This document shows, piece by piece, positions 2,314 through 34,420 of a DNA stretch of 34,621 nt. The notes under the pieces were generated by a model that had not been told where the DNA came from, did not search any database, and worked only from the letters and a program-made list of their open reading frames with translations. Source of the DNA: Pseudomonadales bacterium (GTDB lineage Bacteria > Pseudomonadota > Gammaproteobacteria > Pseudomonadales > Alcanivoracaceae); contig JAKSCQ010000325.1 in the NCBI GenBank assembly GCA_022360555.1, positions 1 to 34,621 on the forward strand. The letters run 5' to 3'. Both the position numbers and the translations under genes were made by a program. How positions within the stretch are numbered: position 1 is the first letter of the stretch; the number at the start of each line of letters is the position of its first letter.

Positions 2314-2341
2314 CAAGCTTCAAGCTGCAAGCTACAAGGCG
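2314..2341 (+). repeat. Heptad repeat arm H1-left
   Basis: Four consecutive 7-bp units begin at 2314, 2321, 2328 and 2335 (CAAGCTT, CAAGCTG, CAAGCTA, CAAGGCG). The arm starts 9 bases after the proC stop. A related arm in inverted orientation lies at 2433-2471. Confidence 0.8.
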
Positions 2342-2432
2342 CGTATGAAGGTGGTCAGGATTTGACATGTAGTGCCCGCGTTGTTGCGTCTGAGCGCGGG
2401 CTCAGCCTTGTCGAAAAGAAGGGGCATGGCGT
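2342..2432. other. Spacer between the H1 heptad arms
   Basis: About 90 bases without a gene. It holds a possible hairpin with arms GCCCGCG and CGCGGGC around positions 2377-2402. No promoter for yggT could be assigned with confidence. Confidence 0.4.
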
Positions 2433-2471
2433 GTTGCAGCTTGCGGCTTGAAGCTTGCCCCTCGTCGCTTG
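2433..2471 (-). repeat. Heptad repeat arm H1-right (inverted relative to H1-left)
   Basis: Read on the minus strand, this region gives 7-bp units such as CAAGCTT, CAAGCCG and CAAGCTG, the same template as 2314-2341. The two arms could form a long stem around the 90-base spacer. Confidence 0.75.
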
Positions 2472-2526
2472 ATTTTCCCCTGTTTTGCCCCAAACTCTCT
2501 CCCTGTTGTGACCAACGGAGTAATCC

Positions 2527-3075
2527 ATGAACCCCCAGGGTGCCCTGTTTTTCCTGCTGGATTTTGCCTTCAGCGTCTACATCTTCATCGTCCTGACCCG
2601 CTTTGTCCTGCAGCTGGCCCGGGCGGATTTCTATAACCCCATTTCCCAGTTCGTGCTCAAGGCCACCAACCCGCTGCTGCGCCCCATGCGCCGTGTGATT
2701 CCGGGTTACGGCGGGCTGGATATCGCCTCGCTGGTGCTGGTGATCATCCTGATCATTCTCAAGGCCGTGGTGCTGCTGAGCATCCAGATGGGGGGGCTGC
2801 CCAGTGGTGTTGGCGGACAGTTGGTGATCTATGCCCTGCGGGAGCTGGCCACCCTGATTCTTGATTATGTGTTCTGGACGGTGCTGATCCGGGTGATCCT
2901 TAGCTGGGTGGCGCCGGACCCCTACAACCCGGTGGTGCGGGTGATCGTGCAGATCACCGAGCCGATCATGGCGCCGGTGCGCAAGCTGCTACCGCCCATG
3001 GGCGGTTTCGACCTGAGCCCGCTGATTGTGTTGCTGGGCATCCAGTTATTGCAGATCCTGTTCCGTCTCCATTAG
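2527..3075 (+). CDS. yggT: YggT family integral membrane protein
   Basis: The protein has 182 residues with two homologous halves, each with a pair of hydrophobic segments and a short conserved stretch: NPLLRPMRRVIPGYGGLD in the first half and EPIMAPVRKLLPPMGGFD in the second. This internal duplication is typical of the YGGT domain. Family members have been linked to osmotic tolerance and to cell-division-associated membrane functions, but the molecular role is uncertain. The start at 2527 follows GGAG at 2517. In Pseudomonas the next genes are metX-metW; here a signalling gene follows instead. A strong terminator lies just downstream. Confidence 0.92.
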   Translation: MNPQGALFFLLDFAFSVYIFIVLTRFVLQLARADFYNPISQFVLKATNPLLRPMRRVIPGYGGLDIASLVLVIILIILKAVVLLSIQMGGLPSGVGGQLVIYALRELATLILDYVFWTVLIRVILSWVAPDPYNPVVRVIVQITEPIMAPVRKLLPPMGGFDLSPLIVLLGIQLLQILFRLH

Positions 3076-3084
3076 ACGATCATG

Positions 3085-3110
3085 AAAAGGCGCCACAAGG
3101 CGCCTTTTTT
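3085..3110 (+). terminator. Intrinsic terminator after yggT
   Basis: A perfect 7-bp stem, AGGCGCC at 3088-3094 with GGCGCCT at 3099-3105, has a 4-base loop and a run of six T. It ends the yggS-proC-yggT unit. Confidence 0.9.
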
Positions 3111-3200
3111 CGTTATACAAAAATGTGAATTCCCTTCCCCTGGCCGACAGAGACAGTTACAAAGTGGTAGAGCGAGACAAGCAACAGCGGGAAGGGAAAC

Positions 3201-4664
3201 ATGGATGATGGGGGAGCCAGCCTGGGCGGACTCGAGGCACTGCACCGGCTATCGCAACTGGACGATGGCGACATTGATGCCCTGTGTCATGAATATTTGA
3301 CCATCGGCTTGCGCCTGTTCGATCTCTCCATCGGGATCGTCAGCCGGGTGGAGGGGCAGGAGTATCAGGTGCTGGCGGTGCAGCCAGAGCAGGAGGGGCT
3401 TCGTAAAGGAGCCTGCTTTTCCCTGAGCGACACCTATTGTGCCGCCGTGATCGGCAAGCGGGGCTCGGTGGCATTGCATCACGTGGGTGGGCTGGAAGAG
3501 ATGCGCTCGCACCCGGTCTACCTGAACATGAAGCTGGAATCCTATCTGGCCACGCCGGTGCGGGTGCGCGGTGAAGTGTTCGGGACCCTCAACTTCAGTG
3601 ATACCCGACCGCGCCAGGAGCCATTCAGCATTGAGGAAATTACCCTGCTGGAGCTGATGGCCCAATCCCTGGGGCGTCAGCTTGAAAAGAGCCTGAGCGA
3701 CCGGGAGCGCGAAGACAGCTACAGCGAATTGCAGGACAACATGGCGCTGTTCGAGGGTGCGTTCCGGCATGCACCGATCGGCATGGCTATCGTGGCCCCG
3801 AATGGCCGCTGGCTGCGGGTCAACGACGCCGTGAGCCAGATCGTGGGGTACAGTGCCGACGAGCTGCTGGCCATGGACTTCCAGTCCATTACCCACCCGG
3901 ATGACCTGGAAAAGGACCTGGCCTTCGTGGAGTCCCTGTTGCGGGGGGAGGCTGACACTTACCGCATGCGCAAGCGCTACACCCACAAGGACGGCCAAGA
4001 AGTCTGGGTGCTGCTGGCCGTGTCGCTGGTGCGCCATGACGGCGGTGCTCCCCGTTACTTCCTGTCCCAGATTGAGGATATCACCGCCCTGGTCCACGGA
4101 CAGCTTGCCCTGCGCGAACAGCGCGATGAGCTGGAACAGCTCAACCTGGAACTGGCGGACCTGGCCCGCAAGGACCCCCTGACCGGCCTGATCAACCGCT
4201 CGGTGATCATTGAGCAGTTGCGTCAGCACCTGGCCCTCGGTTCCCGCACCCATCAACCTCTCTCCCTGATTCTGCTGGCGGTGGGGAATCTCAATGAACT
4301 TAATGCCACACACGGCCATGGCTGTGGTGATGAAGCGCTGGTGGCGGTGGCTGAGGCCCTGTGCCGTGTCAGTGACGGTCAGGCGGAGCTGGCCCGCTTC
4401 AGCGGCAGCCAGTTTCTGGCATTGATGCCGGAAGTCGGGCTCAACACGGCGGAAAGCCTGGCCGGGGACTTCCGCCATGGGGTGTTGTCATTGCCGGACT
4501 TGCCGTTACCCCTGAGCGTCAGTCTGGGCGTGGCGACGCTGATGCCCTGCGAGGAGTCCGCAGGGCAAGAAGCCACCCTGGACAGTGCCCTAGCGGCGGT
4601 TGAGGCTGCGCTGCTGGCGGCCCGGGACGCGGGCAGCAACCTGGTCCGTACGGTTACCCTGTGA
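3201..4664 (+). CDS. GAF-PAS-GGDEF signalling protein with degenerate GGDEF motif
   Basis: The 487-residue cytoplasmic protein has no membrane segment. Residues about 30-165 resemble a GAF domain (SDTYC, YLATPVRV, EVFGTLNFS). Residues about 185-300 form a PAS domain with PAC tail (APIGMAIVAPNGRWLRVNDA, GYSADELL, THPDDL, SQIEDIT). A short coiled linker leads to a GGDEF fold from about 320. DPLTGLINR (325-333) is intact, but the signature is SGSQF (401-405) instead of GG[DE]EF, and the metal-site D-x-N/F region reads VGNLNELNATHGHGCGDEAL. Diguanylate cyclase activity is therefore probably lost; it may bind nucleotide or act as a sensor partner. No EAL domain is present. The start at 3201 follows GGGAAGGGAA. 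It appears to be transcribed alone. Confidence 0.9.
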   Translation: MDDGGASLGGLEALHRLSQLDDGDIDALCHEYLTIGLRLFDLSIGIVSRVEGQEYQVLAVQPEQEGLRKGACFSLSDTYCAAVIGKRGSVALHHVGGLEEMRSHPVYLNMKLESYLATPVRVRGEVFGTLNFSDTRPRQEPFSIEEITLLELMAQSLGRQLEKSLSDREREDSYSELQDNMALFEGAFRHAPIGMAIVAPNGRWLRVNDAVSQIVGYSADELLAMDFQSITHPDDLEKDLAFVESLLRGEADTYRMRKRYTHKDGQEVWVLLAVSLVRHDGGAPRYFLSQIEDITALVHGQLALREQRDELEQLNLELADLARKDPLTGLINRSVIIEQLRQHLALGSRTHQPLSLILLAVGNLNELNATHGHGCGDEALVAVAEALCRVSDGQAELARFSGSQFLALMPEVGLNTAESLAGDFRHGVLSLPDLPLPLSVSLGVATLMPCEESAGQEATLDSALAAVEAALLAARDAGSNLVRTVTL

Positions 4665-4708
4665 GGTTGGCGATGGGCCCTGGCCGGCGGGATACATCCT
4701 GTATTGGC

Positions 4709-11221: not shown

Positions 11222-11243
11222 CCCCTTCATATTTCAGCACCAT

Positions 11244-11275
11244 AAAAAACGCGGCCTTCGTGGCCGCGTTTTTTA
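11244..11275 (+). terminator. Intrinsic terminator after the acyl-CoA dehydrogenase gene
   Basis: GCGGCC (11251-11256) pairs with GGCCGC (11262-11267) around a short loop, extended by A-run/T-run pairing on both sides (AAAAAAC and GTTTTTT). The symmetric A/T flanks could let it work in both directions. Confidence 0.9.
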
Positions 11276-11313
11276 TGTCACATTCCCACACACCCATCCC
11301 GTTCTCCGCGCCA

Positions 11314-11340
11314 CCGTTGGAGCCATGCTCGCATGGCGAA
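11314..11340 (+). repeat. REP-like hairpin, single copy
   Basis: CCGTTGGA followed by core GCCATGC-TC-GCATGGC and GCGAA. The variable triplet is CAT/ATG and pairs perfectly. It is the last GC-rich element before the low-GC island. Confidence 0.82.
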
Positions 11341-11623
11341 TCCCGCCCCACAGTCCTCCCTCGACCCACTCTTCCACCGTGCTCAACAGACCGGGCCTCC
11401 TGGTTTGTAGGATATGGCTTACAGAAAAGGCTAACTGATTGATATAAGGTAAATTTGAGAAGGGGGAATTCACAGCTAAAGTGCATGACCGTACCGGTAC
11501 AATGTCGAACGATCGTGACTTGCCAGTCGAGAAGAAATCACAAAACAATGGCAAGTTACTGACCAGCATAAATTATTCGTGCCTGATGCCGTGAGCCCAA
11601 AATAATTATGTCGAATAGAGTTA

Positions 11624-11640
11624 AGTCGAACCGTTCGACT
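11624..11640. promoter_or_regulatory. Perfect 17-bp palindrome
   Basis: AGTCGAAC (11624-11631) and GTTCGACT (11633-11640) around a single C. TCGAA also occurs nearby at 11504 and 11611. It sits 34 bases upstream of the first small island gene and may be an operator or a decayed recombination site; its role is unknown. Confidence 0.45.
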
Positions 11641-11673
11641 GAATACGCTGTTATGTGGTGTGGTTGGTAGAAA

Positions 11674-11874
11674 ATGAAGATGTTGCTGCGAGTGCTTAGC
11701 GGAATATTGGGCGTCTTCGGAATTGGTGTTTTTAGCCTTATGCTTTATGTCGTTGGAGTTAGTGTTTCTCATTTTTCAGGTCTTTTTATGAGTGCAGTAT
11801 TTCTCGCTTATGGTATTGGTGGCGAGAAAGTAATCGGGGCTGTTTTTCCAGGGTTGTTGAGAAGTAAGTGGTAG
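11674..11874 (+). CDS. Small membrane protein, probable gene cassette product
   Basis: The 66-residue protein is not one I recognise. Two hydrophobic segments (about residues 5-30 and 34-58) suggest a small inner-membrane hairpin. Composition is AT-richer than the flanking chromosome. The gene begins 18 bases after a GTTATGT core-like sequence (11650-11656) and ends 8 bases before the start of the attC-like site at 11883, which is how integron cassettes are packed. The ribosome site is weak. It is hypothetical but position and hydrophobicity favour a real gene. Confidence 0.6.
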   Translation: MKMLLRVLSGILGVFGIGVFSLMLYVVGVSVSHFSGLFMSAVFLAYGIGGEKVIGAVFPGLLRSKW

Positions 11875-11882
11875 CCAGCCAC

Positions 11883-11964
11883 ACATAACAAGCCAAGGCA
11901 GTGGGACATATTTTGTTTCGCTGCGCTCAAAGCACAAAATATGCCCCTGCTTGGGGCGTTAAAG
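11883..11964 (+). other. attC-like integron recombination site
   Basis: An 82-base imperfect palindrome. The left end is ACATAAC (R''-like, 11883-11889) and the right end is GTTAAAG (R'-like core, 11958-11964). The arms at 11893-11916 and 11934-11954 pair over 21 bases, leaving three unpaired bases on the left arm only (one G of 11897-11898, T11902 and A11906). Unpaired bases confined to one arm are the hallmark of attC sites, which IntI recognises as folded single strands. The 17-base loop contains TTCGCTGCGCTC. A terminator is less likely because there is no T-run and the bulges are systematic. Confidence 0.78.
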
Positions 11965-11974
11965 GGGAGGGGAG

Positions 11975-12469
11975 ATGCTCAGTTCTTATGTGGCTATTGG
12001 GGTTAGGCTCGTAGCTATTTTATTTTTCTTTAAAGCCGTTAGAGAGTTTTTTGGGGTGTTTCAGTTTTTCTACCAGGGTAGCCCCTATGGTGATGACACC
12101 TCGGCATGGCCTATTTTGGTGGTGGCTTTAACAAGCTGGGCTCTTGTGTTCATTCTTTGGTTCTCCGCTCGAGTGGTTGGTCGCTTGGTGGCATCTGGTG
12201 GCATTGATGCTAAGCCTGAAAAGATGCCTCCTGTCTCTTTGCTGGCGGTGTTTGTTGCTGCTATTGGTTTGTTTGTTTTCTGGTACGGTGCGGTTGATTC
12301 CCTGTATTACCTATCGGTAATTATTATGGGGCAGCAGTTGGGTGTTCCTGAAATGTCCGTAGAGATAAAAGCCAACATGGTCGCTACTGCCTTTGAAGTC
12401 ATAAGTGGGGTTTTTCTTGTGATGAAAGCGAGAACGGTTGCCGGCAAGATTAATGATGTAGCGCGTTAG
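11975..12469 (+). CDS. Hypothetical membrane protein, gene cassette product
   Basis: The 164-residue protein is not one I recognise. It has about four hydrophobic segments (roughly 5-30, 45-72, 84-110 and 130-152), with a loop rich in K/P/E around 75-83. It begins 10 bases after the GTTAAAG core of the upstream attC-like site, with a strong purine-rich ribosome site (GGGGAGGGGAG). It ends at a TAG just before the next attC-like site. Codon use is clearly AT-richer than the flanking housekeeping genes. The layout core-RBS-gene-attC is that of an integron cassette. Confidence 0.72.
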   Translation: MLSSYVAIGVRLVAILFFFKAVREFFGVFQFFYQGSPYGDDTSAWPILVVALTSWALVFILWFSARVVGRLVASGGIDAKPEKMPPVSLLAVFVAAIGLFVFWYGAVDSLYYLSVIIMGQQLGVPEMSVEIKANMVATAFEVISGVFLVMKARTVAGKINDVAR

Positions 12470-12474
12470 TAATC

Positions 12475-12523
12475 CTTTAGCAATGCCATCCATGCGACAA
12501 GCGCATGATGGCGGGCGTTAACC
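12475..12523 (+). other. Short attC-like site
   Basis: Arms at 12485-12496 (GCCATCCATGCG) and 12502-12512 (CGCATGATGGC) pair with one unpaired C on the left arm. The right end GGGCGTTAACC matches an attC right core (GTTAACC, 12517-12523). The left box CTTTAGC fits RYYYAAC at only five of seven positions. At 49 bases it is shorter than typical attC sites, so it may be decayed. Confidence 0.6.
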
Positions 12524-12544
12524 TGGCGAAGAAAAGTAATAGAA

Positions 12545-13153: not shown

Positions 13154-13281
13154 CGAGGCAGTTCACGCAACACCTGAATCCGCTGCCGCAGACCCCACTG
13201 GCTGCATTCATTCTGTCATGGCTGATACGGACAACTTGGCTGCCAAGAAAGGGGCTGCTGACAATTCACAAAGAGATTTAA

Positions 13282-13617: not shown

Positions 13618-13695
13618 ACCAGTCATCTATAGGCTATGAAAAACATCATGCCGGGCTTGGCCGGCCACTGAAAAAACAGGTATTTGGGTCTTGCC

Positions 13696-17261: not shown

Positions 17262-17264
17262 AGG

Positions 17265-22874: not shown

Positions 22875-22906
22875 GGTGAACCTCGGGGTCAGTAAGTGGT
22901 GGGCAG

Positions 22907-22934: not shown

Positions 22935-23028
22935 CGGGATGACTCGGCTGCACCTGCCTGGCCATGCCCGCGATTATAGGTGAAGCGCGGCGAGGTCATT
23001 GCCCGGTTGGCAGCAGCCTGTTCCGCGC

Positions 23029-23061
23029 TTTGCAACTTGAAACTTTCAACTTGCAACTCTC
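23029..23061 (-). repeat. Heptad repeat arm H2-right (inverted)
   Basis: On the minus strand this gives repeated CAAGTTG/AAAGTTT/CAAGTTG units, 7 bases apart. It abuts the def stop codon at 23062-23064. The def-fmt gap is therefore almost wholly made of the two H2 arms and a 94-base spacer. Confidence 0.8.
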
Positions 23062-23568: not shown

Positions 23569-23712
23569 GTACCTTCTCAGAAGTTGCGATAGCACTCGAA
23601 ATTCGGTTGCTAAATATATGATCGCATTGCTAATATCCAAAAGAAACCGTGTCCGTATAACGGCGGCACGGCAGCTCTTGGGGATGAGTCCAATAATGAT
23701 AAAAGGAATCCG

Positions 23713-24786
23713 ATGATGATGAAATCGGTCCAGCGCGCCCTGGCCTTCGGCCTGCTTCTGTCCGTATCCGGTCTGGCGGCCGCTCAGGTGGTTCTCAAAG
23801 AGGGGCATCCCAGCAAGTATTTCGTGAAAAACGGCGACACCCTGTGGGATATCAGCGGCCGTTTTCTGGAAGAGCCCTGGCAATGGCCGGAAATCTGGCA
23901 GATCAACGAGGAAATCAGTAACCCTCACCTGATCTATCCCGGGGACGAAATCCGCCTTACCTATGTGAATGGCGAGCCGCGCCTGACGGTGGAGCGCGGC
24001 GTGCAGGAAACCCAAATGCCCAACGGCACCGTCAAGCTCACCCCCAAGGTACGGGAAATCGCCAATGACGAAGCCATTCCGGCGATTCCGGCCAGCGCCA
24101 TTGCCGCCTACCTGAAAGAAGGCCTGGTGGTGAGCCAGCGTGAAATTCAGGAAGCGCCCTATGTCGTTGGTGGCCAAGACCGGCGCGTAGTGTTTGGCGA
24201 AGGCGATTCTGTCTATGCACGCGATACCCTGACCCGCTGGGAAGAGCTGGAGCGCGGCTACGGCATCTACCGGACTGGTGAACAGTATGTGGATCCGGAT
24301 ACCAATGAAGTCCTGGGTTACGAGGCGCGCCAGGTAGGGCTTGGCCGGGTGGCCAACCAGAAAGATGACATCGCAACCCTGCGTGTGACCGATTCCACCG
24401 AGGATATCCGCATCGACGACCGTATCTTCTCCACGGAAGACCGCCGTGTGCGCTCCGTGCTGTACCCGTCGGCACCGGATACCAAGATTGAAGCCAAGAT
24501 CATCCGCTTCTTCGATCGCCTCAGCAGCGTGGCTCGCAACGATGTGGTGGTGATCAACAAGGGCCTGCGTGATGGCCTGAAGGAAGGCAATGTGCTGGAT
24601 ATCTTCGGCAAGGGCGAGGTGGTCCGTGATCGCCAACTGGGCGATAATGTCCAATTGCCCAACGAGAAAACAGGCTCCATGGTAATCTTCCGGGTTTTCG
24701 ACAAGGTCAGCTATGGCTTGATTATGGAGTCCACCCGGCCTATTTATATGAACGACATCGCCGAAAGCCCGGCGGGCAGCTATTAA
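23713..24786 (+). CDS. LysM-domain exported protein
   Basis: A 357-residue protein with an N-terminal signal peptide (hydrophobic core [15 protein letters not shown], likely cleavage after AAA-Q). One LysM peptidoglycan-binding domain follows (about residues 35-85: [39 protein letters not shown]). The rest is a mostly beta region without a recognised catalytic motif. It corresponds to the LysM gene found between def and dprA in Pseudomonas and other gammaproteobacteria, suggesting a periplasmic cell-wall-linked role. The start at 23713 follows AAAGGA. Three ATG codons in a row leave the exact start ambiguous by two residues. Confidence 0.92.
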
Positions 24787-24865
24787 CAGACAACCTCTGC
24801 GGTAGCGCTCACCGCCGGAGCTACGGCTCCTGACAACCCCGTCAACGCACACAAGGAGGTGGGCG

Positions 24866-25930
24866 ATGGACGGACAATTCAAGCGCCTGCTGTTGCAGGC
24901 GCTGTTTTCCCCGTCTTCTGCGGCCTTGGGCCGTGCACTCAAACAACACCGGATCAATGCGCCGGTGTCCGATTTTCTGCCTTTGCTGCCTGCCGGCCTC
25001 AAAGAGCGGGCCAATCTGCTGAACAATACCGGCAACCTGTCGGTGCAGTTCGAATCCCTGCAGGAACAGGGCTGGCGCTGGATTGCCCTGGGTGACCCGG
25101 ATTACCCGTCGTTATTGGCCAGCATCAACGATGCCCCCGGCGTCATCGCCGTGCGCGGCGACCCCGAGATTCTCAATGCGCCGGGCCTGGCCATGGTGGG
25201 GGCCCGCAATGCCTCCGCCGATGGCCTGGACAACAGTCGCCGCTTTGCCCGCCAGCTTGCTGGCAGTGGCTTCGTGGTGGTCAGTGGCCTGGCGCTGGGG
25301 GTGGATGCGGCGGCGCACCGTGGTGCCATTGAGGCCGGGCAAACCGTCGCCGTACTGGGCAGCGGGCCGGACCGCCTGTATCCGCCGCGCAATGCCTGCC
25401 TGGCCAGCCGGATCGTGGAAACGGGCGGCGCCCTGGTGACCGAATTCGCCCCGGGATCGGCGCCGTTGCCCGCCCAGTTTCCACTGCGCAATCGCGTGAT
25501 CAGTGGCCTGAGCCTGGGCACTATTGTGGTGGAGGCGGCGATCAAGAGCGGTTCACTGATTACCGCCCGCACCGCCCTGACCCAGGGGCGTGAGGTGTTT
25601 GCCATCCCCGGCAGTATCCATAACCCGCTCAGTAAGGGCTGCCACCAGTTGTTGCGCGACGGTGCCAACTGGCTGGAATCCATGGACGACATCTTTCAGG
25701 CGTTCGGGGATTTCCACCGCAGTATCGAGGCGGCGGGGATTTCCGAAGCCGCCCCGCCGGCGTTGCTGCGCTATCTCACCAGCGGCCTCAATTCCATGGA
25801 CGTGTTGCAGGAGCGGACCGGCCTGTCCATGGAAGAGCTGGCCGGCCAGCTTTCCGATCTGGAACTGGAAGGCTGGGTGGAGCGGGTGGCCGGTGGCTAC
25901 ATGAAGCGTGAAGGCAGTTTCCACCCCTGA
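24866..25930 (+). CDS. dprA: DNA-processing protein DprA
   Basis: DprA binds incoming single-stranded DNA and loads RecA during natural transformation. The 354 residues comprise an N-terminal SAM-like helical region (1-70), the Rossmann-type DprA fold (about 75-290) and a C-terminal winged-helix-like region (about 300-350). [54 protein letters not shown] and [20 protein letters not shown] are characteristic. It has a perfect AAGGAGG ribosome site at 24854-24860. Together with type IV pilus genes such as pilT, this makes competence plausible, although no uptake genes are seen here. Confidence 0.96.
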
Positions 25931-25990
25931 TTGTATGTCGCAATCGCAAGGGAAAAAGACAGAGGGAAGCCAGCGTCAGGAGGAACAGGG

Positions 25991-26494
25991 ATGTGTGCAC
26001 GATGGTGTGTAACAGGGCTATGTTTGCTGGCAGGCTGCACAACGGTTAATCAGCCTATCCAGACTCCCACCGGAGAAACCGCAGTGGTCGAAGGGGAGAT
26101 GTCCATTTTGCGTGTGGTGCGCAAGGTGGTATCGACCGGCACCCAGCCGGATGCCCGCCGGGGCAGGATTACCGAACGGGTAGAGGTGTCTTGCCCGGCA
26201 GGGACCCGGATGGTGCTGCCCGTCCCCGAACAGGTGGTGTTCGGCTTTGGCGAGGTGGAGGAAGGGGAAGACGCCGAGGGCAGAAGCGGGCTGATCTGGT
26301 CCCGTGCCAAACAGCGTCCCCTGGGTGTGTCCTACAGCGGGGTAACCGTAGACAGGGTCTACGCGGCGGAGGACGGTGAACAGGCTGCGGAACTTGAAGT
26401 GACCGCCTGGCTAACGGACAAGAACGGTGATGATTCCTGGTGGCAGGTCCAGGCCTTCCATGCGTTGTGCCTGGGGAGTCGGGGGCCGGACTAG
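25991..26494 (+). CDS. Putative lipoprotein of unknown function
   Basis: A 167-residue protein starting MCARWCVTGLCLLAGC. LLAGC is a lipobox with the acylated Cys16, and Thr17 points to an outer-membrane or non-retained lipoprotein. The body is mostly beta (VEGEMSILRVVRKVVSTG, RVEVSCPAGTRMVLPVP). I do not recognise the family; WWQVQAFHALCLG ends the protein. The start at 25991 follows CAGGAGGAACAGGG. An extension upstream to 25931 would spoil the signal peptide. It lies between dprA and tsaC, which are adjacent in Pseudomonas, so it is probably an insertion into that gene order. Confidence 0.75.
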   Translation: MCARWCVTGLCLLAGCTTVNQPIQTPTGETAVVEGEMSILRVVRKVVSTGTQPDARRGRITERVEVSCPAGTRMVLPVPEQVVFGFGEVEEGEDAEGRSGLIWSRAKQRPLGVSYSGVTVDRVYAAEDGEQAAELEVTAWLTDKNGDDSWWQVQAFHALCLGSRGPD

Positions 26495-26581
26495 GCCGGT
26501 TCGCACACTGCCCCGGCGATCGCACGGTTTGCACCAGCTTGCCCGTCGGCGTATACCGACAGGGTAGACACAGGAAGGATT

Positions 26582-26806
26582 ATGTTCGAAATTCTGGTGC
26601 CCCTGGTCCAGGACCCCAATGACTGGCAACCGCTCGAGGCGGTTCACCTGCGTGGCAGGCTCTACCGGATTATCGGCAGTGCGGCGGACCCGCAGGAGAC
26701 ACGGTTTATTGCCGGGGATGTGGTGGAGTGCGAGTCGGAAACCGCGGAAAATGGCAAACGCGTGCTGCGGGCACGCCGGCTGGCTCCGGCTGCCCGGTTC
26801 TATTGA
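26582..26806 (+). CDS. Small conserved-looking hypothetical protein
   Basis: A 74-residue soluble protein (MFEILVPLVQDP at the start) without signal or membrane segment. Predicted short strands (AVHLRGRLYRIIG, TRFIAGDVVECES, KRVLRARRL) suggest a small beta barrel. I do not recognise it. It has a good ribosome site (AGGAAGGA, 4 bases upstream of the ATG), and lies 64 bases before tsaC, so it is probably co-transcribed. Confidence 0.65.
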   Translation: MFEILVPLVQDPNDWQPLEAVHLRGRLYRIIGSAADPQETRFIAGDVVECESETAENGKRVLRARRLAPAARFY

Positions 26807-26870
26807 ACGAAAGCCTTGAGGGCCGAGGGCCGGCAGGGTATGTTGCGCGTTTTCGGGCCAGGCGAACGTC

Positions 26871-27419
26871 ATGAACCAGCATCTTGTCAGTGCCGCACAG
26901 ATCATCCAGGCCGGGGGCGTGGTGGCCTATCCCACCGAGTCCGTGTACGGGCTGGGCTGCGATCCTTTCAATGAAGAGGCGGTTATGCGCCTGTTGGCGA
27001 TCAAGCAGCGTCCGGTGGACAAGGGCATGATCCTGATCGGTGCCGACCTGGTGCAACTGGCGCCCTGGCTGGAACTCCGGGGCGACCAGTACCAGCAACT
27101 CGAACAGCAATGGCCGGCCCCCCTGACCTATCTGGTGGAAGCGAAAGCAACGGTGCCGTCCTGGGTTCGGGGCCGCCACGCCAAGGTGGCGGTGCGAGTG
27201 CCGGACCACCCGCTGGCCAGGGCGCTGTGCCGTCGGGTCGGCCATCCGATCATTTCCACCAGTGCCAACCTCAGCGGCCGGCCGTCGGCCCGCAATCGCT
27301 TCCAGGTGGCCCGACAGCTTGGCGATCAGCTGGATTTCATTGTCAGCGGCGTCTGTGACCGCGCCAGCAAACCTTCTACCATTATCGATCTGGAAAGCGG
27401 GCGCACCCTTCGCGCATAG
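26871..27419 (+). CDS. tsaC: Threonylcarbamoyl-AMP synthase
   Basis: TsaC makes threonylcarbamoyl-AMP from threonine, bicarbonate and ATP for the t6A modification at position 37 of ANN-decoding tRNAs. The 182 residues are the short YrdC-type form without a Sua5 tail. The RNA/nucleotide-binding cleft residues are present: [13 protein letters not shown], the KxR motif in [24 protein letters not shown] and [10 protein letters not shown]. It precedes hemF, as in Pseudomonas (where qor intervenes). Confidence 0.96.
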
Positions 27420-29173
<1,754 letters not shown>

Positions 29174-29175
29174 GC

Positions 29176-29622
29176 ATGGAGCACGAGGCGGTCCTCTACG
29201 AAGTCGTGTATGCCTCGGTGGTCAGCCTGATGATGGTGCTGACCACGGTAACGCTGCATTACTGGACGCTGGCCAGCCTGTCAGCATTGCTCAAGCGCCG
29301 GAAGGATTTCCGGGGCGAAATCCTGCTTGTGGTGATCGCCATGTTTTTCGCCCACATGGTGGAAATTTCCCTCTATGCCTGGGTGTATCAGCTACTTGAT
29401 CGCAGTGACACCTATATGAGCATTGGTGGTGCCGTGGATGGCAGCTTCATTGACCATCTCTATTTTTCTGCCGCCTGTTATACTTCCCTGGGTCTCGGTG
29501 ACCTCTACCCGGTGGGAACACTGCGATTGATGGCGGGGGTGGAAGCCCTGAACGGCCTGATACTAATAACCTGGTCCGCGTCGTTTGCCTTTCTTGTCAT
29601 GCAGCGTCGCTGGCGATTCTGA
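29176..29622 (+). CDS. Two-helix potassium-channel-like membrane protein
   Basis: A 148-residue inner-membrane protein. Hydrophobic segments at about 8-35 and 48-70 precede a pore region, FSAACYTSLGLGDLYPVG (about 96-113), and a last helix GVEALNGLILITWSASFAFL. The layout helix-pore loop-helix matches ion-channel family 2 (Ion_trans_2). The filter reads TSLGLGD instead of TTVGYGD, so the GYG tyrosine is replaced by leucine and K+ selectivity is uncertain. It starts only 2 bases after the aroE stop with GAGG inside aroE, so it is co-transcribed. Functional kinship with TrkAH is inference only. Confidence 0.82.
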   Translation: MEHEAVLYEVVYASVVSLMMVLTTVTLHYWTLASLSALLKRRKDFRGEILLVVIAMFFAHMVEISLYAWVYQLLDRSDTYMSIGGAVDGSFIDHLYFSAACYTSLGLGDLYPVGTLRLMAGVEALNGLILITWSASFAFLVMQRRWRF

Positions 29623-29675
29623 AAGCGCAACTGCGCCTTTGGGGGCACATTCAACCACTGGACCAGGGACTGTTT

Positions 29676-30659
29676 ATGCCCCCGCGTTTTGCTGCCTGTC
29701 TGTTTGTCCTGTTTTTGTCGTCAGCGGCGAAAGCCTCCACGTTCGGCTTTTCCTGGGATAACGACCTGTTTGTCGGCTCTGATGGTCAGTACACCAATGG
29801 TGTGCGCCTTAGTTGGGTCGGCAATGCCCATGAACATTGTGAGCGCAACACTACCTTCACCTGTGGCCTGGCCTCGACGCTGGACCCACTGCCCGGTATC
29901 AGCATCCAGGATGAAAAGCATGCCCTGACCCTGAGCCTGGAACAGGTGATGATCACTCCCGGGGATATCAGTCGCACCGAACCGGATTACAGCGACCTGC
30001 CCTATGCGGGCTACAGCAATCTGGAAATGGGCCTGTTCAGTTGGGATGACAGTCGCCTGTTCGGCTACGGCATCCGCGTCGGCGTGGTGGGCGAGGATTC
30101 CGGTGCCGAGCAGAGTCAGAAATTTGTACACAAGCTTACCGGCTCCACCGACCCCCAGGGCTGGGACCATCAGCTGGGCCCGGATGTAATTGGCGGGGCC
30201 TATTTCATCACCGCCGAGCGGGCCTGGCAGCACCGGTCGGACAGCGGCATGCAGACCGAGCTGGGCTATGCCTGGGGCGTGGATGCCAACAACTTTCACG
30301 GCACCGCAACGGCAGGGGGCTTCCTGCGATTCGGTCGTAACCTGCCGCGCAACTTTATCCCCGACTATGCCGGTATCGGCACGGCCGGTTCCCTGGTGGG
30401 CCTGCTGGAAGGCGAAGGCTTCGGCTGGGAAACCTTCGTCGCCAGCTTCGGTGAGTACATCGGCTATTCCTACCTGGAAAACCACGCGGACGAATACAAC
30501 GTGGAATCCCGCGATGGCATCATTGGTCTGGTGGTCGGTGGCGGGGTTCACTGGGACAACTTTTCCTTCACCCTCACCCTGCAGGGCTCCACCTCCCCCC
30601 TGCGCAACAGTGACGACCCACTCAGCTTCGGCAACATGTCGTTCATGTGGAAAATCTAG
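29676..30659 (+). CDS. LpxR-like outer-membrane lipid A deacylase family protein (DUF2219)
   Basis: A 327-residue protein with a signal peptide (FAACLFVLFLSSAAKA, cleavage likely before STFGFS). The mature part alternates beta strands, ends in FMWKI (aromatic near the C-terminus, as in outer-membrane barrels), and carries family wording: FSWDNDLFVGSDGQYTNGVR near the N-terminus, LPYAGYSNLEMG, and SQKFVHKLTGSTDPQGWDHQ with the candidate catalytic histidine. LpxR of Salmonella removes the 3'-acyloxyacyl group of lipid A; several of its active-site residues (N/D in WDND, T in YTNG, H in FVHK) appear conserved. Activity is predicted, not shown. The start at 29676 follows CAGGGA. Confidence 0.88.
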   Translation: MPPRFAACLFVLFLSSAAKASTFGFSWDNDLFVGSDGQYTNGVRLSWVGNAHEHCERNTTFTCGLASTLDPLPGISIQDEKHALTLSLEQVMITPGDISRTEPDYSDLPYAGYSNLEMGLFSWDDSRLFGYGIRVGVVGEDSGAEQSQKFVHKLTGSTDPQGWDHQLGPDVIGGAYFITAERAWQHRSDSGMQTELGYAWGVDANNFHGTATAGGFLRFGRNLPRNFIPDYAGIGTAGSLVGLLEGEGFGWETFVASFGEYIGYSYLENHADEYNVESRDGIIGLVVGGGVHWDNFSFTLTLQGSTSPLRNSDDPLSFGNMSFMWKI

Positions 30660-30682
30660 CTTCGTCATTTCTTACGAAGCCG

Positions 30683-30710
30683 CTGTAGGAGCACATCTTG
30701 AGGTGCGAAC
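30683..30710 (+). repeat. REP-like hairpin, variant subtype
   Basis: CTGTAGGAGC then ACATCTTGAGGT then GCGAAC. It keeps the GGAGC...GCGAA ends of the local REP family, but the stem is different (CAC/GTG with an 8-base interior). Confidence 0.55.
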
Positions 30711-30809
30711 CGCGCTTGCGCGGAAATCGTCCGGAGGACGATCAGGAATATACGCACTCGACAGGTCCATTCAAACCATCCTTCATGGCGCTATTTCCAA
30801 TTCCTCCCA

Positions 30810-30836
30810 TTCGCCATGCGAGCATGGCTCCCACAG
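30810..30836 (-). repeat. REP-like hairpin
   Basis: On the minus strand: CTGTGGGA, core GCCATGC-TC-GCATGGC, then GCGAA. The core is identical to the copy at 11314-11340, though the left flank is the TGTGGGA type. Confidence 0.82.
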
Positions 30837-30875
30837 GGAATGTTCGGGAAGCTATCCAGGCGATAGGGGAGGGCT

Positions 30876-30903
30876 GGTGGATTACGCCTTCGGCTAATCC
30901 ACC
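30876..30903. repeat. Hairpin repeat of the GGTGGATTA...TAATCCACC type
   Basis: Perfect 9-bp arms GGTGGATTA (30876-30884) and TAATCCACC (30895-30903) with an inner GCC-TTC-GGC stem. Very similar intergenic hairpins are common in Pseudomonas and other Proteobacteria. It may act as a bidirectional terminator-like structure but lacks a T-run. Confidence 0.75.
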
Positions 30904-30942
30904 CTACATGTCGGGCATTACGGGAGCCGTGTCTCGCGGCGT

Positions 30943-31494
30943 TCAACTTTCCACTTGCTCATGCTCGTCCGCCAGGTACCGATCTTTCAGGCGCTCATAA
31001 TTCCCCGCTACATAGGGCAGAAATTCCTTCTCTTCCGCGGTCAGGGCCCGCACCTGCCGCGCCGGCTGGCCGCGATAGAGATAGCCGCTTTCCAGTCGTT
31101 TGCCCGGTCCCACCAGGGAGCCGGCGGCCACGATCACATCGTCTTCCACCACGGCTCCATCCATGATGATCGCCTGCATGCCCACCATCACCCGGTTGCC
31201 CAGGGTGCAGCCATGCAGCATGGCCTGGTGGGCGATGGTCACGTCATCACCGATCTCCAGCGCAAAGCCGCCCGGGTTGAAGCGCGAATCGTGGGTAATG
31301 TGCAGCACGGCGTTATCCTGGATGCTGACCCGTGCGCCAATGCGGATGCGATGCATGTCCCCCCGGATCACCGCCCGGGGCCAGACAGAACAGTCTTCCC
31401 CCAGGCGCACATCGCCAATCACCGTGGCGTCCTCATCCACAAAGACCCGCTCACCAAGCCGCGGGGCCTTGTCTTCAAAGCGGCGAATCCCCAT
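30943..31494 (-). CDS. Gamma-carbonic-anhydrase-like hexapeptide-repeat protein
   Basis: A 183-residue left-handed beta-helix protein of the YrdA/PaaY/CaiE group. Repeated hexapeptide turns run from about residue 15 to 150 (VFVDEDATVIGDVRLGEDCSV..., IQDNAVLHITHDS, IAHQAMLHGCTLGNRVMVG). Three histidines in LHITHDS and TIAHQAMLHGC are at the zinc-ligand positions of gamma-class carbonic anhydrases. Relatives include thioesterase PaaY, so hydratase activity is not certain. The ATG at 31494 gives the family N-terminus; the longer frame to 31644 overlaps the divergent small gene. Confidence 0.9.
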   Translation of the reverse strand: MGIRRFEDKAPRLGERVFVDEDATVIGDVRLGEDCSVWPRAVIRGDMHRIRIGARVSIQDNAVLHITHDSRFNPGGFALEIGDDVTIAHQAMLHGCTLGNRVMVGMQAIIMDGAVVEDDVIVAAGSLVGPGKRLESGYLYRGQPARQVRALTAEEKEFLPYVAGNYERLKDRYLADEHEQVES

Positions 31495-31537
31495 CACTGA
31501 TACACTCGATAGTTCATTTCGATTCCCAGGGACGAGC

Positions 31538-31702
31538 ATGCAACGGCGGCCCGCCCATATAATGATTGCCATACTGATCTTGCTTGGCGTTTTCCTGCTG
31601 AGCAAGTGGCTGATATTCCAGACGCTGCTGGAACCGGATGACACCGCCCGTCAACGGCTGCCGGCCGCGTCCACTGAAGCAGGACAGTCCAACCATGAGT
31701 AA
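31538..31702 (+). CDS. 54-residue single-pass membrane protein overlapping prlC
   Basis: The predicted protein begins MQRRPAHIM, then has one strong hydrophobic helix (about 9-29: IAILILLGVFLLSKWLIF) and a polar tail ending AGQSNHE. AGGGA lies 5 bases upstream of the ATG. Its last 8 bases overlap the prlC start (the ATG is in the second-last codons), so prlC translation is probably coupled to it. I do not recognise a family. It is easily missed because of size. Confidence 0.6.
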   Translation: MQRRPAHIMIAILILLGVFLLSKWLIFQTLLEPDDTARQRLPAASTEAGQSNHE

Positions 31703-33728
31703 CAACCCGCTGATCGACTACCCGGATCTGCCCCCGTTTTCCCGCATCCAGCCGGAGCATGTGCTGCCGGCGGTAGAGCAACTGGTGGCGGACGGTCGTG
31801 CCCGCATCCAGCAGGTGCTGGCGGAGGGCAATTTCGACTATGCCCACCTGGTACAGGCCCTGGATGAAGAAGACGACCGCCTGGGCAAGGCCTTCGGCCC
31901 GGCGGGGCATCTCAACGCCGTGGCCCAGAACGAGACGCTGCGCGATGCCTTCAATAGCTGCCTGCCGTTGCTCAGTGAATACGGCACTGAGGTGGGGCAG
32001 AACGCGGCACTGTGCGCCGCCTACCAGGCCCTGCGCGACAGCGAGGAATGGCACAGCCTGAGCGAAGCCCAGCAGAAAGACATTGAAAACACCCTGCGCG
32101 ATTTCCGCCTTTCCGGGGTGGACCTGCCGGCGGACAAGAAAGCGCAGTACATGGCCAACTCCAAACGCCTGTCCGAACTGTCCAGCAAGTTCTCCGACAA
32201 TCTGCTGGACGCCACCCAGGCCTGGAGCAAACACATTACCGACGCGGCGGAACTGGACGGCCTGCCGGACAGCGCCATGGCCGGCGCCGCCGACCGGGCG
32301 AGGGCCGATGGCAAGGACGGCTGGCTGCTGACTCTGGACGCGCCGGTCTTCATCGCCGTGATGAGCCACTGCCGCAATGCCGAACTGCGCAAGGAAATGT
32401 ACACCGCCTGGACCACCAAGGCCTCCGACCAGGGCCCCAATGCCGGCGAGTTCGACAACGCCGCCATCATGGATGAAATCCTCAAGCTGCGTCATGAGCA
32501 GGCGCAACTGTTGGGCTTTGCCAACTACGGCGAAGAGTCCCTGGCCACCAAGATGGCTCGTGACGTGAACGAGGTCATCCAGTTCCTCGACGATCTCGCC
32601 AAACGCGCCAAGCCCCAGGCCGAGCAGGAACTGGCGGAACTGAAGGCCTTTGCTGCCGAGCAGGGTGCCGGCGAACTGAACCCCTGGGATATCGGTTTCT
32701 GGAGCGAGCGCCTGCGCGAAGCACGCTACAGCATTTCCGAGGAAGAGCTGCGCCCCTGGTTCCCGGCGGACACCGTGATCAACGGCATGTTTGCCGTGGT
32801 GGGCAAGCTGTTCGGCATCCAGTTCCGCCAACGCGATGACGTGGACACCTGGCACGACGACGTGCGTTTCTACGAACTGGTGGACGATGACGGCAGCGTG
32901 CGCGCCGCCTTCTACCTGGACATGTATGCCCGCACCGGCAAGCGTGGTGGCGCCTGGATGGACGATGCCCGCCTTCGTCGCCGCCGCGCCGATGGCAGCC
33001 TGCAAACGCCGGTGGCCTACCTGACTTGCAACTTCGCCCCGCCCGCCGGCGGCAAGCCGGGCCTGCTCACCCACGATGAAGTGGTTACCCTGTTTCACGA
33101 GTTCGGCCATGGCCTGCACCACATGCTCACCGAACAGGATGTGTCCGGGATTTCCGGCATCAACGGTGTGGCCTGGGACGCGGTGGAACTGCCCAGCCAG
33201 TTCCTGGAAAACTGGTGCTGGACCGAAGAGGGCATCGCGCTGATCTCCGGCCACTACGAAACCGGTGAACCGTTGCCAAAGGAAAAACTGGAAAAAATGC
33301 TAGCGGCAAAAAATTTCCAGAGTGCCATGCAGATGGTGCGGCAACTGGAGTTTTCCCTGTTCGACATGCGCATCCATGCCGAATACCGGGAAGGGCTGGA
33401 TATCTACCAGGTCCTGAATGAAGTGCGCCAGCAAGTGGCGGTGATACAGCCGCCTTCCTTCAACCGCTTTCCCAACAGCTTTGGTCATATCTTTGCTGGT
33501 GGTTATGCGGCGGGTTACTACAGCTACAAGTGGGCGGAAGTGCTGTCCTCCGATGCCTATTCCCGCTTCGAGGAAGACGGCGAATTCAATGAGGAAACCG
33601 GCCGCGCCTTCCGCAGCGAAATCCTGGCCAAAGGCGGCAGCCGCGAACCCATGGAGCTGTTCAAGGCCTTCCGGGGGCGAGAGCCCAGCGTGGAGCCCCT
33701 GCTGCGCCATTGCGGCATCAACGGCTGA
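31695..33728 (+). CDS. prlC: Oligopeptidase A (M3 zinc metallopeptidase)
   Basis: PrlC degrades oligopeptides, including cleaved signal peptides, in the cytosol. The 677 residues are close to the E. coli length of 680. The zinc motif HEFGHGLHH begins at His468, with the third ligand in the downstream helix ELPSQFLENW. NFAPPAGGKPGLLTHDEV and HIFAGGYAAGYYSYKWAEVLS near the C-terminus are family signatures. The start MSNNPLIDYPDLPPF is at 31695; an upstream frame to 31638 is inside the small membrane gene. It is followed by yheV, an arrangement known in Pseudomonas. Confidence 0.96.
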   Translation: MSNNPLIDYPDLPPFSRIQPEHVLPAVEQLVADGRARIQQVLAEGNFDYAHLVQALDEEDDRLGKAFGPAGHLNAVAQNETLRDAFNSCLPLLSEYGTEVGQNAALCAAYQALRDSEEWHSLSEAQQKDIENTLRDFRLSGVDLPADKKAQYMANSKRLSELSSKFSDNLLDATQAWSKHITDAAELDGLPDSAMAGAADRARADGKDGWLLTLDAPVFIAVMSHCRNAELRKEMYTAWTTKASDQGPNAGEFDNAAIMDEILKLRHEQAQLLGFANYGEESLATKMARDVNEVIQFLDDLAKRAKPQAEQELAELKAFAAEQGAGELNPWDIGFWSERLREARYSISEEELRPWFPADTVINGMFAVVGKLFGIQFRQRDDVDTWHDDVRFYELVDDDGSVRAAFYLDMYARTGKRGGAWMDDARLRRRRADGSLQTPVAYLTCNFAPPAGGKPGLLTHDEVVTLFHEFGHGLHHMLTEQDVSGISGINGVAWDAVELPSQFLENWCWTEEGIALISGHYETGEPLPKEKLEKMLAAKNFQSAMQMVRQLEFSLFDMRIHAEYREGLDIYQVLNEVRQQVAVIQPPSFNRFPNSFGHIFAGGYAAGYYSYKWAEVLSSDAYSRFEEDGEFNEETGRAFRSEILAKGGSREPMELFKAFRGREPSVEPLLRHCGING

Positions 33729-33743
33729 TTTTTCGCCTCAGAG

Positions 33744-33776
33744 GGCACAGGATGTATTAAAGACGTCTTTTGTGCC
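33744..33776. other. Stem-loop after prlC
   Basis: Outer arms GGCACA (33744-33749) and TGTGCC (33771-33776) enclose a perfect 12-bp palindrome AAAGACGTCTTT (33759-33770). No long T-run follows. It may mark the 3' end of the prlC message or be a binding site. Confidence 0.45.
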
Positions 33777-33781
33777 GGGAA

Positions 33782-33876
33782 AGTTAAGTAGCGAGTAACG
33801 GCAAGCGAGTTTCGAAAGGCAAAACCCCGCGCCGCCGGGTTTTCGGAACTCGCGCCTCGCAACTCGAGACTCAAAG
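33782..33876. repeat. Heptad repeat inverted pair H4
   Basis: The left arm (33782-33820) has GCGAGT-type units 7 or 14 bases apart. The right arm (33838-33876), read on the minus strand, has CGAGTTG/CGAGGCG/CGAGTTC units 7 bases apart. An AAAACCCC...GGGTTTT stem joins them at the centre. The pair fills most of the prlC-yheV gap and ends 9 bases before the yheV start. Confidence 0.7.
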
Positions 33877-33884
33877 GGTTTTCT

Positions 33885-34079
33885 ATGAAACGCCAATTTA
33901 TCGCCGGGGCCACCTGCCCGGAGTGCGGCCAGATGGACAAGGTTCAGCGTGTCATCGACGGCGACAGGCAATGGATGGAATGCGTCGCCTGCGGCGCGAC
34001 CAAGGACCTGGACGCCAAACCGTCGGAAGCGAAAGACGCGCTGGCCCAGCCTGTTAATCTGCAACCTTACAAGAAATAG
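33885..34079 (+). CDS. yheV: YheV family putative zinc ribbon protein
   Basis: A 64-residue protein with two CxxC pairs, CPEC (11-14) and CVAC (33-36), spaced as in a zinc ribbon. The opening MKRQFIAGATCPECG is typical of the YheV family. The function is unknown; small zinc ribbons often bind nucleic acid or partner proteins. The gene follows prlC by 156 bases, which are filled by repeat H4. The ribosome site is weak (AAAGGG, 6 bases upstream). Confidence 0.9.
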   Translation: MKRQFIAGATCPECGQMDKVQRVIDGDRQWMECVACGATKDLDAKPSEAKDALAQPVNLQPYKK

Positions 34080-34159
34080 ATTTTTCTGCAGGAGCGTCGT
34101 CCGCGTTTCGGTACTCGTCACTGAGCCCCGCGTACAAGCGTTGAAAAGAAATGTCGCTT

Positions 34160-34280
34160 TCAACTCAGTAAGCCACTTTTCAACCCCGCCACCGTCTTTG
34201 CCATCTGCATGCGCAGCCATGGCACCTTCTCTATGACAGGAAAGAGCAGGTCCCGCCCGGCGCCGATAATGGCGATAGAT
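34160..34280 (-). pseudogene. Possible remnant of a flavin-dependent monooxygenase C-terminus
   Basis: The minus strand encodes AGRDLLFPVIEKVPWLR followed by MQMAKTVAGLKSGLLS and a stop. This resembles the helical tail of FAD_binding_3-type monooxygenases. The open frame continues upstream but without family-like sequence, and no start or flavin motif is present. If real, it is a decayed 3' end left by a deletion. Similarity is from memory of the family's pattern only, so confidence is low. Confidence 0.3.
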
Positions 34281-34365
34281 TGTGGTTGCACCGATGAATA
34301 TCCCTTCCCTGAAAGCCTGCCCATGCTAGCAAGGAAAGGTGCTGTTCGTGGATCGGGATAAAAAA

Positions 34366-34387
34366 ACGGGCCGCGAAGGCGGCCCGT
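34366..34387 (-). terminator. Intrinsic terminator after fpr
   Basis: Perfect 9-bp arms ACGGGCCGC (34366-34374) and GCGGCCCGT (34379-34387) around GAAG. On the minus strand the stem is followed by a run of T (34366 downward). Confidence 0.9.
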
Positions 34388-34390
34388 AGC

Positions 34391-34420
34391 GTGTTGCGTG
34401 CAAGCTGGGAGCGTGCAAGC
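34391..34420 (-). repeat. Heptad-type arm H6 (single arm)
   Basis: Minus-strand units such as CACGCAA and GCTTGCACGC recur at about 7-base steps, as in H5-right. The arm begins 8 bases after the fpr stop and runs up to the terminator. No inverted partner was found in the window. Confidence 0.5.

Follow-up and report, generated by a model that had tools for sequence, protein, structure and literature searches.

Inverted pairs of heptad arrays beside stop codons in Alcanivorax: candidate REP- and MITE-like palindromes at gene ends

The window analysed here, 34,621 nucleotides of contig JAKSCQ010000325.1 (assembly GCA_022360555.1) from a Pseudomonadales bacterium of the family Alcanivoracaceae, holds five intergenic loci at which two arms, each built of units repeating every seven bases (heptads), lie in inverted orientation. 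These loci had been described in a first-pass annotation made from the letters of the window, and the arms can be read directly in the sequence where it placed them. They belong to a real, structured and abundant family of inverted period-7 pairs whose members share period, inversion, polarity and a place beside stop codons, with the unit varying from locus to locus, just as the annotation had it. The words turn over between species at orthologous gaps, and one core has dispersed relatives elsewhere in its genome.

Judging from sequence comparison, our preferred reading, held tentatively and at a little below even probability, is that these elements are dispersed non-coding palindromes resembling repetitive extragenic palindromes (REPs) and miniature inverted-repeat transposable elements (MITEs), spread by copying and kept as stop-proximal modules at gene ends. 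Palindromes of ~155 bp (long class) and ~80–100 bp (short class) would have spread by copying and would now be retained behind stops, with a module behind the last codon or between convergent stops supplying a 3′ boundary by means of a strong RNA stem and possibly a DNA cruciform. Such a boundary may set transcript 3′ ends and decay and insulate facing genes, and the module could be swapped for another heptad word or a doublet of GTAG REPs with the site kept; the transposition mechanism, the action on transcript ends or decay, and the functional interchangeability of modules are the putative parts of this reading. Heptamer repeats have so far been noticed in single genome groups and explained differently each time, whereas in these genomes a single architecture and a single address, the gene end, are common to several words, which turn over between species there. 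This shared address makes it testable whether word, stem or position carries function, and provides a comparative system alongside the REP elements found at the same sites.

Abundance, polarity and address of the heptad pairs

Pairs were detected as inverted period-p segments no more than 350 bp apart, with pairs of larger spacer dropped everywhere. The source genome yielded 35 period-7 pairs in 380,494 bp, a biased figure, the contigs having been picked for the word CAAGCT, and contiguous 400 kb stretches of two other Alcanivorax genomes, G372 and G381, chosen regardless of content, yielded 17 and 33 respectively. Control periods of 4–6 and 8–13 gave 0–3 pairs each and period 14, a multiple of 7, gave 7–16, with no period-7 inverted pair in nine dinucleotide shuffles; the annotation's pattern survives both the wider scan and the shuffle check. 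The word CAAGCTNCAAGCTNCAAG has 110 exact matches in the source genome, overlapping matches within one array counted separately, compared with 0 for its reversed control. Using reference words drawn from the left arms of the same data, polarity was scored in 76 non-overlapping pairs whose spacer is at most 160 bp. In 73 of them the AG-type strand points inward from the left arm, two are ambiguous, and one is opposite (L055 9786–9913, TCTAGCT), the sole clear exception, in which one arm is long and pure. Overlapping pairs were merged or skipped in this count and in those of placement, arm mismatch and gap size; the 160 bp limit applies also to arm mismatches, and spacers of 25–150 bp to the arm-matching comparison given below.

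Among 85 elements from three genomes, 43 lie in codirectional, 26 in convergent and 10 in divergent gaps, with 2 overlapping predicted genes and 4 unplaced. Codirectional elements begin at a median of 4 nt behind the upstream stop, 36 of the 43 doing so within 30 nt (22.0 expected from uniform placement in the same gaps), and for 13 of 43 the next start is no more than 30 nt away. Once gaps above 700 bp are left out and those holding only unpaired segments set aside (51 codirectional, 27 convergent with a median of 360 bp, 8 divergent), subtracting the element from its convergent gap leaves a median of 4 bp (n = 25), compared with 106 bp for convergent gaps without period 7 (n = 85; Mann-Whitney p 3.9e-6), with no difference in codirectional (65 vs 53.5 bp, p 0.20) or divergent gaps (180 vs 187 bp, p 0.41). 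Convergent elements thus span their gaps from one stop to the other. Gene ends came from a simple codon-usage caller whose placing of the window's def gene was off, and individual distances may therefore be in error. Loci fetched for CAAGCT pairs show a similar address elsewhere, with 16 of 17 codirectional elements of the Pseudomonas group (31 loci, 4 unplaced) starting at most 15 nt after the upstream stop and all 10 convergent ones ending at most 19 nt from both stops; in other groups (12 loci), 6 of 7 codirectional elements lie within 21 nt of the stop, the remainder being 2 divergent, 2 convergent and 1 unplaced.

The same address would follow if these were passive MITE-like elements, their heptad arms acting as terminal inverted repeats bound by a putative transposase and their stop-proximal sites being where insertions survive. 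We consider this rather unlikely. A 4-bp residual in convergent gaps is not expected from insertion alone, unless it favours tight gaps, and the further evidence on both sides is taken up with the cores below.

Anatomy, turnover and origin of the elements

The long class, ~155 bp in length, follows one plan: four heptads, a CGCG box, ~28 free bases, a GC hairpin (consensus rCCGCGCc, short loop, GCGCGGgc), ~30 free bases, a second CGCG box and four inverted heptads, with spacers of about 90–105 bp between the arms. Both outer boxes, matched loosely close to the ends of the arms as C[GAT]CG and CG[CTA]G, occur in 49 of 54 elements with an 80–110 bp spacer, with 5 showing no recognisable boxes; the central motif and its similar spacing were judged by eye. 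The short class (about 80–100 bp, spacers about 14–60 bp) is without CGCG boxes, has other cores and chiefly uses the words AGTTNCG, CACGCNN and GTCNGAC. In a common register the words of the family read AGCTNCA, AGTTNCA, AGTTNAA, AGTKAAY, AGTTGAY, AGTTNCG, CACGCNN and GTCNGAC, and most arms are some four units long, with a length of 28–34 nt in 145 of 260 arm segments. The first-pass description of the sequence as free is not supported, as the same unit classes are met again at many loci and the spacers of the long class hold CGCG boxes and a central hairpin. Different arm classes can have a core motif in common: in G381, L070 with CACGC arms and L080 with AATTAAT arms agree at 90% over a stretch of 52 nt, most of it the central hairpin.

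Syntenic stretches of 14 other Alcanivorax species, G377 and G380 lying outside the set, were compared with the source genome (G000), with classes read by eye. Gene identities in the window are those of Pfam domains, and the short names proC, yggT, def, fmt, trkA and trkH are presumptive. At proC-yggT the post-stop site is the same in 13 of 15 species and is occupied by heptads of five classes or by doublets of GTAG REPs: long AGCTNCA elements in G000, G379, G382 and G384, long AGCTNC[GT] elements in G372 and G376, AGTTNAA in G381, AGTTNCA in G373, short AGTTNCG elements in G374, G375 and G378, and GTAG REP doublets in G371 and G383. At def-fmt all 15 species hold an element or a REP-like hairpin at the same site, with AGTTNAA in G376, G381 and G383, AGCTNC[GT] in G371, G372, G374 and G378, AGCTNCA in G379, G382 and G384, AGTTNCA in G000 and G373, short AGTTNCG in G375, a decayed copy in G369 and a REP-like hairpin in G370. 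The word also changes at trkA-trkH (11 species) and at the gap between the peptidase M3 and DUF2387 genes (14 species), where some species carry REPs. The presence-or-absence pattern that the annotation had sought in orthologous gaps takes the form of different heptad words or GTAG REP doublets in the same gap.

Same-class orthologous cores of the window elements after proC (H1) and between def and fmt (H4) are 0.96, 0.79, 0.75, 0.72, 0.72, 0.67, 0.63, 0.62 and, in one case, below 0.60 identical (n = 9), and different-class orthologous cores reach at most 0.64, close to the family background of 0.58–0.59. Conversion of units in place with the core kept is rejected on these values; with cross-class identity near background, replacement and long divergence are indistinguishable. 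Flank and arm phase are shared only between AGCTNCA and AGCTNC[GT] at proC-yggT. The G372 left arm there has N letters as in its AGCTNCA relatives with the seventh letter of three units changed, and the right arm is changed to match, which is the one clear sign of joint change in both arms.

Replication slippage, which the annotation had offered as a possible cause, is not supported as the main one. In its fuller form, 7-base slippage together with fold-back copying between the arms around a terminator hairpin would make matched arms in place, and such an origin could account for the coordinated change in G372, for long pure single-heptad arrays in Alcanivorax and Pseudomonas, and for the better match of arms to their own locus. 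Arms within a locus are 0.798 alike compared with 0.758 for other loci of the same class (0 of 2000 permutations), the within-locus match being higher in 4 of 7 classes and lower in 3. In a swap test across species covering H1, H4 and the trkA-trkH element (H3), in which the split was set in favour of own arms and many of the swaps crossed classes, the own arm was the single best partner in 5 of 11 (H1), 4 of 13 (H4) and 2 of 10 (H3) species, and 0, 0 and 35 of 5000 permutations respectively reached the own mean. Adjacent identical heptads are, however, depleted (61 of 645, vs 97.5 ± 5.8 after within-arm shuffling of unit order; 235 arms of 3–5 units), which argues against plain slippage, since slippage alone would enrich them. 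At a distance of three units, 59 of 175 pairs are identical (26.9 ± 3.7 after the same shuffling), and the N letter is the same in neighbouring units in 7 of 115 (AGTTNAA), 6 of 43 (AGTTNCA) and 29 of 118 (AGCTNCA) cases, against an expectation of about 0.34–0.35. Between arms the N letters agree at chance in AGTTNAA (33 of 75) and AGTTNCA (13 of 31), also contrary to copying between arms, and above chance in AGCTNCA (38 of 78; 47 of 5000 permutations reach it); these unit, N-letter and mismatch counts pool arms of orthologous elements from several species and are not independent. With units moreover recurring at many loci, mostly at about four per arm, we regard slippage and fold-back copying as a very improbable origin.

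Copying is seen for one core subfamily. In samples that cover roughly one tenth of three genomes, the mean identity between non-local paralogous long cores is 0.58–0.59, none of 62 long elements has a non-local partner core at 0.80 or above (maximum 0.79), and the closest core pairs are local duplicates within one genome (L059 100%, L060 85%, L291 79%). The view suggested by these samples, that there had been no recent copying, did not hold for the AT-type L075 core of G381, for which a whole-genome search lists 76 further matches, many places being listed on both strands. Among the 40 of these that were scored, at least four further copies extend over at least 96 of 103 bases at 84–86% identity, all more than 100 kb away and two of them 0.5 kb apart; the G372 and G381 copies of this core type are 84% alike, similar to the dispersed copies of G381. 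These near-full-length copies indicate that at least one core subfamily spread by copying, not very recently. A second core, L033, has 35 further matches, mostly partial and to its centre, and whole-genome searches with the H1 and H4 cores found no second match in the source genome. Of the mobility raised in the annotation, spread by copying is seen for the L075 subfamily and not for the two window cores tested.

For the elements as passive MITEs, these results cut both ways. The size, the ~30-bp terminal inverted repeats and the absence of coding capacity fit, cores are related between loci, and the distribution is patchy (3 of 369 class-draw genomes) yet reaches several phyla; the dispersed L075 copies shift some weight toward this reading, slightly away from the preferred one and away from slippage. 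Conversely, the H1 and H4 cores are single and the L033 matches partial, no sampled non-local core pair reaches 0.80, target duplication is not established, and the best inverted repeats at the RAYT loci compared are not heptads. By our own reading, the best inverted repeats at 28 of 30 RAYT loci (PF01797; two were too short) are GTAG-like at ~14, GGGGTCAGG-like at ~7, unremarkable at 7 and heptad at none; the 30 loci, 95,930 bp in all, contain 4 heptad pairs. RAYT is accordingly rejected as direct mobilising partner, the flanks compared not being heptads; the search of transposase families covered PF01797 only. This domain is present in 16 of 17 genomes of the genus. The genome lacking it, G369, has 0 heptad pairs in 130 kb (L132–L136, L321–L322) besides its decayed def-fmt copy, and the heptad-pair family may be extinct there.

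Our preferred reading, of copied palindromes kept as gene-end modules, leans on an RNA stem that the annotation had also considered, and here the evidence divides. Stable folds are predicted, with five window segments folding better than their shuffles (z −5.77, −3.79, −2.97, −3.32 and −7.50), the third being matched by 2 of 200 shuffles and the fifth comprising only the left arm and terminator of the element at 17265–17587 (H2). Several observations weigh against the reading. Arm mismatches, numbering 280 of 2,055 positions in 71 codirectional elements, fall on the sense strand as 56 G.U and 52 A.C, with no strand bias toward G.U; were an RNA stem alone under selection, G.U would be expected to be the commoner, so that RNA pairing may not be selected. 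Terminator-like sites are not enriched over positions 15000–34621 (18 vs 16.7 expected), and among the elements scanned one occurs only at H2 (17304–17330) and as the hairpin beside H6, the weak single arm at 34391, with none listed inside H3, H4 or H5 (H1 lies outside the scan). Ten of 79 placed elements lie in divergent gaps, several elements occupy short gaps between codirectional genes of probable operons, a setting in which strong termination would be costly, and stop-proximal sites may simply be where insertions are least harmful. Compensatory RNA pairing as the main force is rejected: in two of the three classes the N positions agree no more than chance would give, and G.U bias is lacking, despite the above-chance overall arm match. 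Selection of an RNA stem is no likelier than a constraint at the level of DNA or sequence, or than no constraint on pairing itself.

Elements of the window

The strongest period-7 segments of the window are 2314–2338, 17265–17292, 17551–17580, 22907–22931 and 23030–23058, with weaker ones at 2434–2457, 19062–19081 and 33849–33872. H1 and H4 follow the long-class plan. The left arm of H1 (2314–2338, plus strand, AGCTNCA heptads) follows the stop of proC, encoding pyrroline-5-carboxylate reductase, and leads through a CGCG box (2340–2343), a central GC hairpin GCCCGCG..CGCGGGC identified by consensus and fold (2374–2401) and a right box reading CGTG (2430–2433) to a minus-strand right arm (2434–2471) that is clear over 24 bp up to 2457 and made of degenerate heptads up to 2471. 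H4, in the def-fmt gap, has a plus-strand left arm of AGTTNCA heptads (22907–22931), CGCG boxes at 22933–22936 and 23024–23027, the central consensus motif GCCCGCG..GCGCGG (22966–22990) and a minus-strand right arm adjoining the def stop (23030–23061).

H2, at 17265–17587, is an AT-type pair enclosing a terminator and a further long block. Its left arm (17265–17296, plus strand) follows the stop of a fatty acid desaturase gene that is convergent with trkH, an intrinsic-terminator-like hairpin with a T tail lies at 17304–17330 (plus strand), and the right arm (17551–17583, minus strand) adjoins the trkH stop. Between the arms, at 17352–17550, is the long block with GGAGTAACGCACGAAGTGCGG-type sequence; similar blocks are found in the G381 and G384 gaps and not in the shorter gaps of G376 and G378. 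H3 lies in the trkA-trkH gap, with a plus-strand left arm of CACGCNN heptads (19056–19081) overlapping the predicted trkH start and a minus-strand right arm (19098–19146) that adjoins the trkA stop and mixes 7- and 8-base spacing. An 8-base period had been assigned by the annotation to part of H5; this is doubtful, as the sole strong period-8 stretch of the window is 19098–19146, the right arm of the 19049–19146 locus.

H5, of the short class, lies between the peptidase M3 and DUF2387 genes, with a left arm of AGTTNCG heptads (33790–33815, plus strand), a core hairpin flanked by A and T tracts (33820–33843) and a right arm at 33849–33875 (minus strand). The sixth, single arm, H6 (34391–34420), is present and weak, next to a terminator-like hairpin on the minus strand (34366–34387). 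A scan of the window against Rfam gave no match at gathering scores. Away from these elements, positions 11222–14620 contain few open reading frames (ORFs) with native codon usage and are possibly foreign DNA.

Range and comparison with known systems

The CAAGCT word occurs in 17 of 17 genomes of the genus, in 25 of 46 of the family and in 3 of 369 of a class draw that includes the source genome; of the other two class-draw genomes, G288 has inverted pairs and G276 none in the 10 kb seen. Over named genomes the pattern of CAAGCT in both arms was found in at least 112 stretches, with the 80 listed coming from Alcanivorax, Alloalcanivorax, many Pseudomonas, Halopseudomonas, Natronospiraceae, Paucimonas, a metagenome-assembled genome (MAG) of Verrucomicrobia, Fulvivirgaceae, Flavitalea and Sediminibacterium, MAG assignments possibly including contamination. 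Beyond Alcanivorax, CAAGCT arms enclose other cores in Pseudomonas, Natronospiraceae, Bacteroidota and the Verrucomicrobia MAG; by eye, these cores are without the CGCG plan, and several Pseudomonas cores hold AAAAGC..GCTTTT-like hairpins and long pure arrays. Long arrays of one pure heptad are also found in source-genome contigs C27, C82 and C236, in Pseudomonas L148 and L190 and in Alloalcanivorax L183, and are fit for strain typing or phase-variation checks. GGTCGAG- and CAGGAGT-type arrays whose word drifts within one array occur in L187 (4373–7534) and L165, from a proteobacterial MAG.

The omega repressor binds WATCACW heptads cooperatively, and by analogy the heptads here could be sites of a cooperatively binding DNA protein, with inverted arms building a nucleoprotein complex across gene ends. 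In three classes the units have mostly fixed letters and one that is freer, arm polarity is consistent, RNA-strand bias is lacking, and the CAAGCT unit recurs in distant phyla with different cores, all of which fits; many unit classes coexist in one genome, however, and would hardly be readable by one protein, and we judge this explanation quite unlikely. A broader proposal, that these are phylum-spanning stop-proximal modules, is unlikely too, if less so. It would have the word rather than the core conserved and recognised by a factor reading polar four-heptad arms, the word switchable in both arms together at a fixed gene end, and neighbouring units kept different against slippage, with Xanthomonas GGGAATC as one dialect and G-quadruplexes incidental.

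The annotation knew of no description of such elements. None was found for Alcanivorax or Pseudomonas in a literature search made mostly without full texts and with subscription papers outside its scope, whereas convergent inverted heptad pairs of the GGGAATC type have been published for Xanthomonas. According to the parts of that paper considered here (PMC4692102), GGGAATC / GGGANTN heptads of two species have period 7 and a majority of four units and are read as G-quadruplexes, with two convergent sites close together in 70 cases among the 186 arrays of Xcc and 75 among the 183 of Xac. They are 89% and 93% intergenic, are separated on average by 28 nt from the neighbouring ORF on the 5′ side and by 160 nt from the one downstream, and vary in length and sequence between species at the same gene pairs, with unit positions partly variable (PMC4692102, same parts). 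The Alcanivorax elements likewise have period 7, mostly four units, a convergent inverted pair and an intergenic position near the end of the upstream ORF. Unlike the single G-rich unit of Xanthomonas, their units are not G-rich, and GGG is present in none of the 45 commonest, which makes the architecture independent of G-quadruplexes. Furthermore, the sections compared of PMC4692102 give no shared core, orthologous word switch or filling from stop to stop. Intergenic seven-base units in several copies are also reported, in the portions considered, for Nostoc (PMC4692102) and, as TAACTGA, for Beggiatoaceae (PMC4679880); the latter is one unit, mostly just upstream of putative starts, in 169 direct sets and one indirect repeat, in contrast to the inverted Alcanivorax units.

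MITEs such as ERIC, NEMIS and RUP, as described in the part of PMC3733652 considered, measure 70–300 bp, have terminal inverted repeats of 15–30 bp, carry no ORF and give folding RNA. The Alcanivorax elements match them in size, in terminal inverted repeats, in lack of coding capacity as far as gene prediction goes (2 of 85 overlap genes) and, for the L075 subfamily, in dispersed copies, and differ in having internally periodic arms and many words.

REP and REPIN elements are dispersed extragenic palindromes, mostly downstream of genes and some within 15 nt of stops (PMC3733652, PMC3116915 and PMC12306157, in the parts seen). As relayed in the same portion of PMC12306157, REPs at most 15 nt from a stop codon stall ribosomes and lower translation, which is the most direct functional precedent. 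The heptad elements are likewise dispersed stop-proximal palindromes, and GTAG doublets hold the same orthologous sites in Alcanivorax. PMC3733652 defines GTAG and CGTC REPs and relatives of the terminal-inverted-repeat type, the word heptamer being absent from its text; unlike REPs, the Alcanivorax arms are heptad arrays that begin with heptad words, bear by eye no GTAG or CGTC tag at their ends, differ in word from locus to locus and do not flank the RAYT genes compared. In form the heptad family comes nearest to the heptad pairs of Xanthomonas, in address to REPs.

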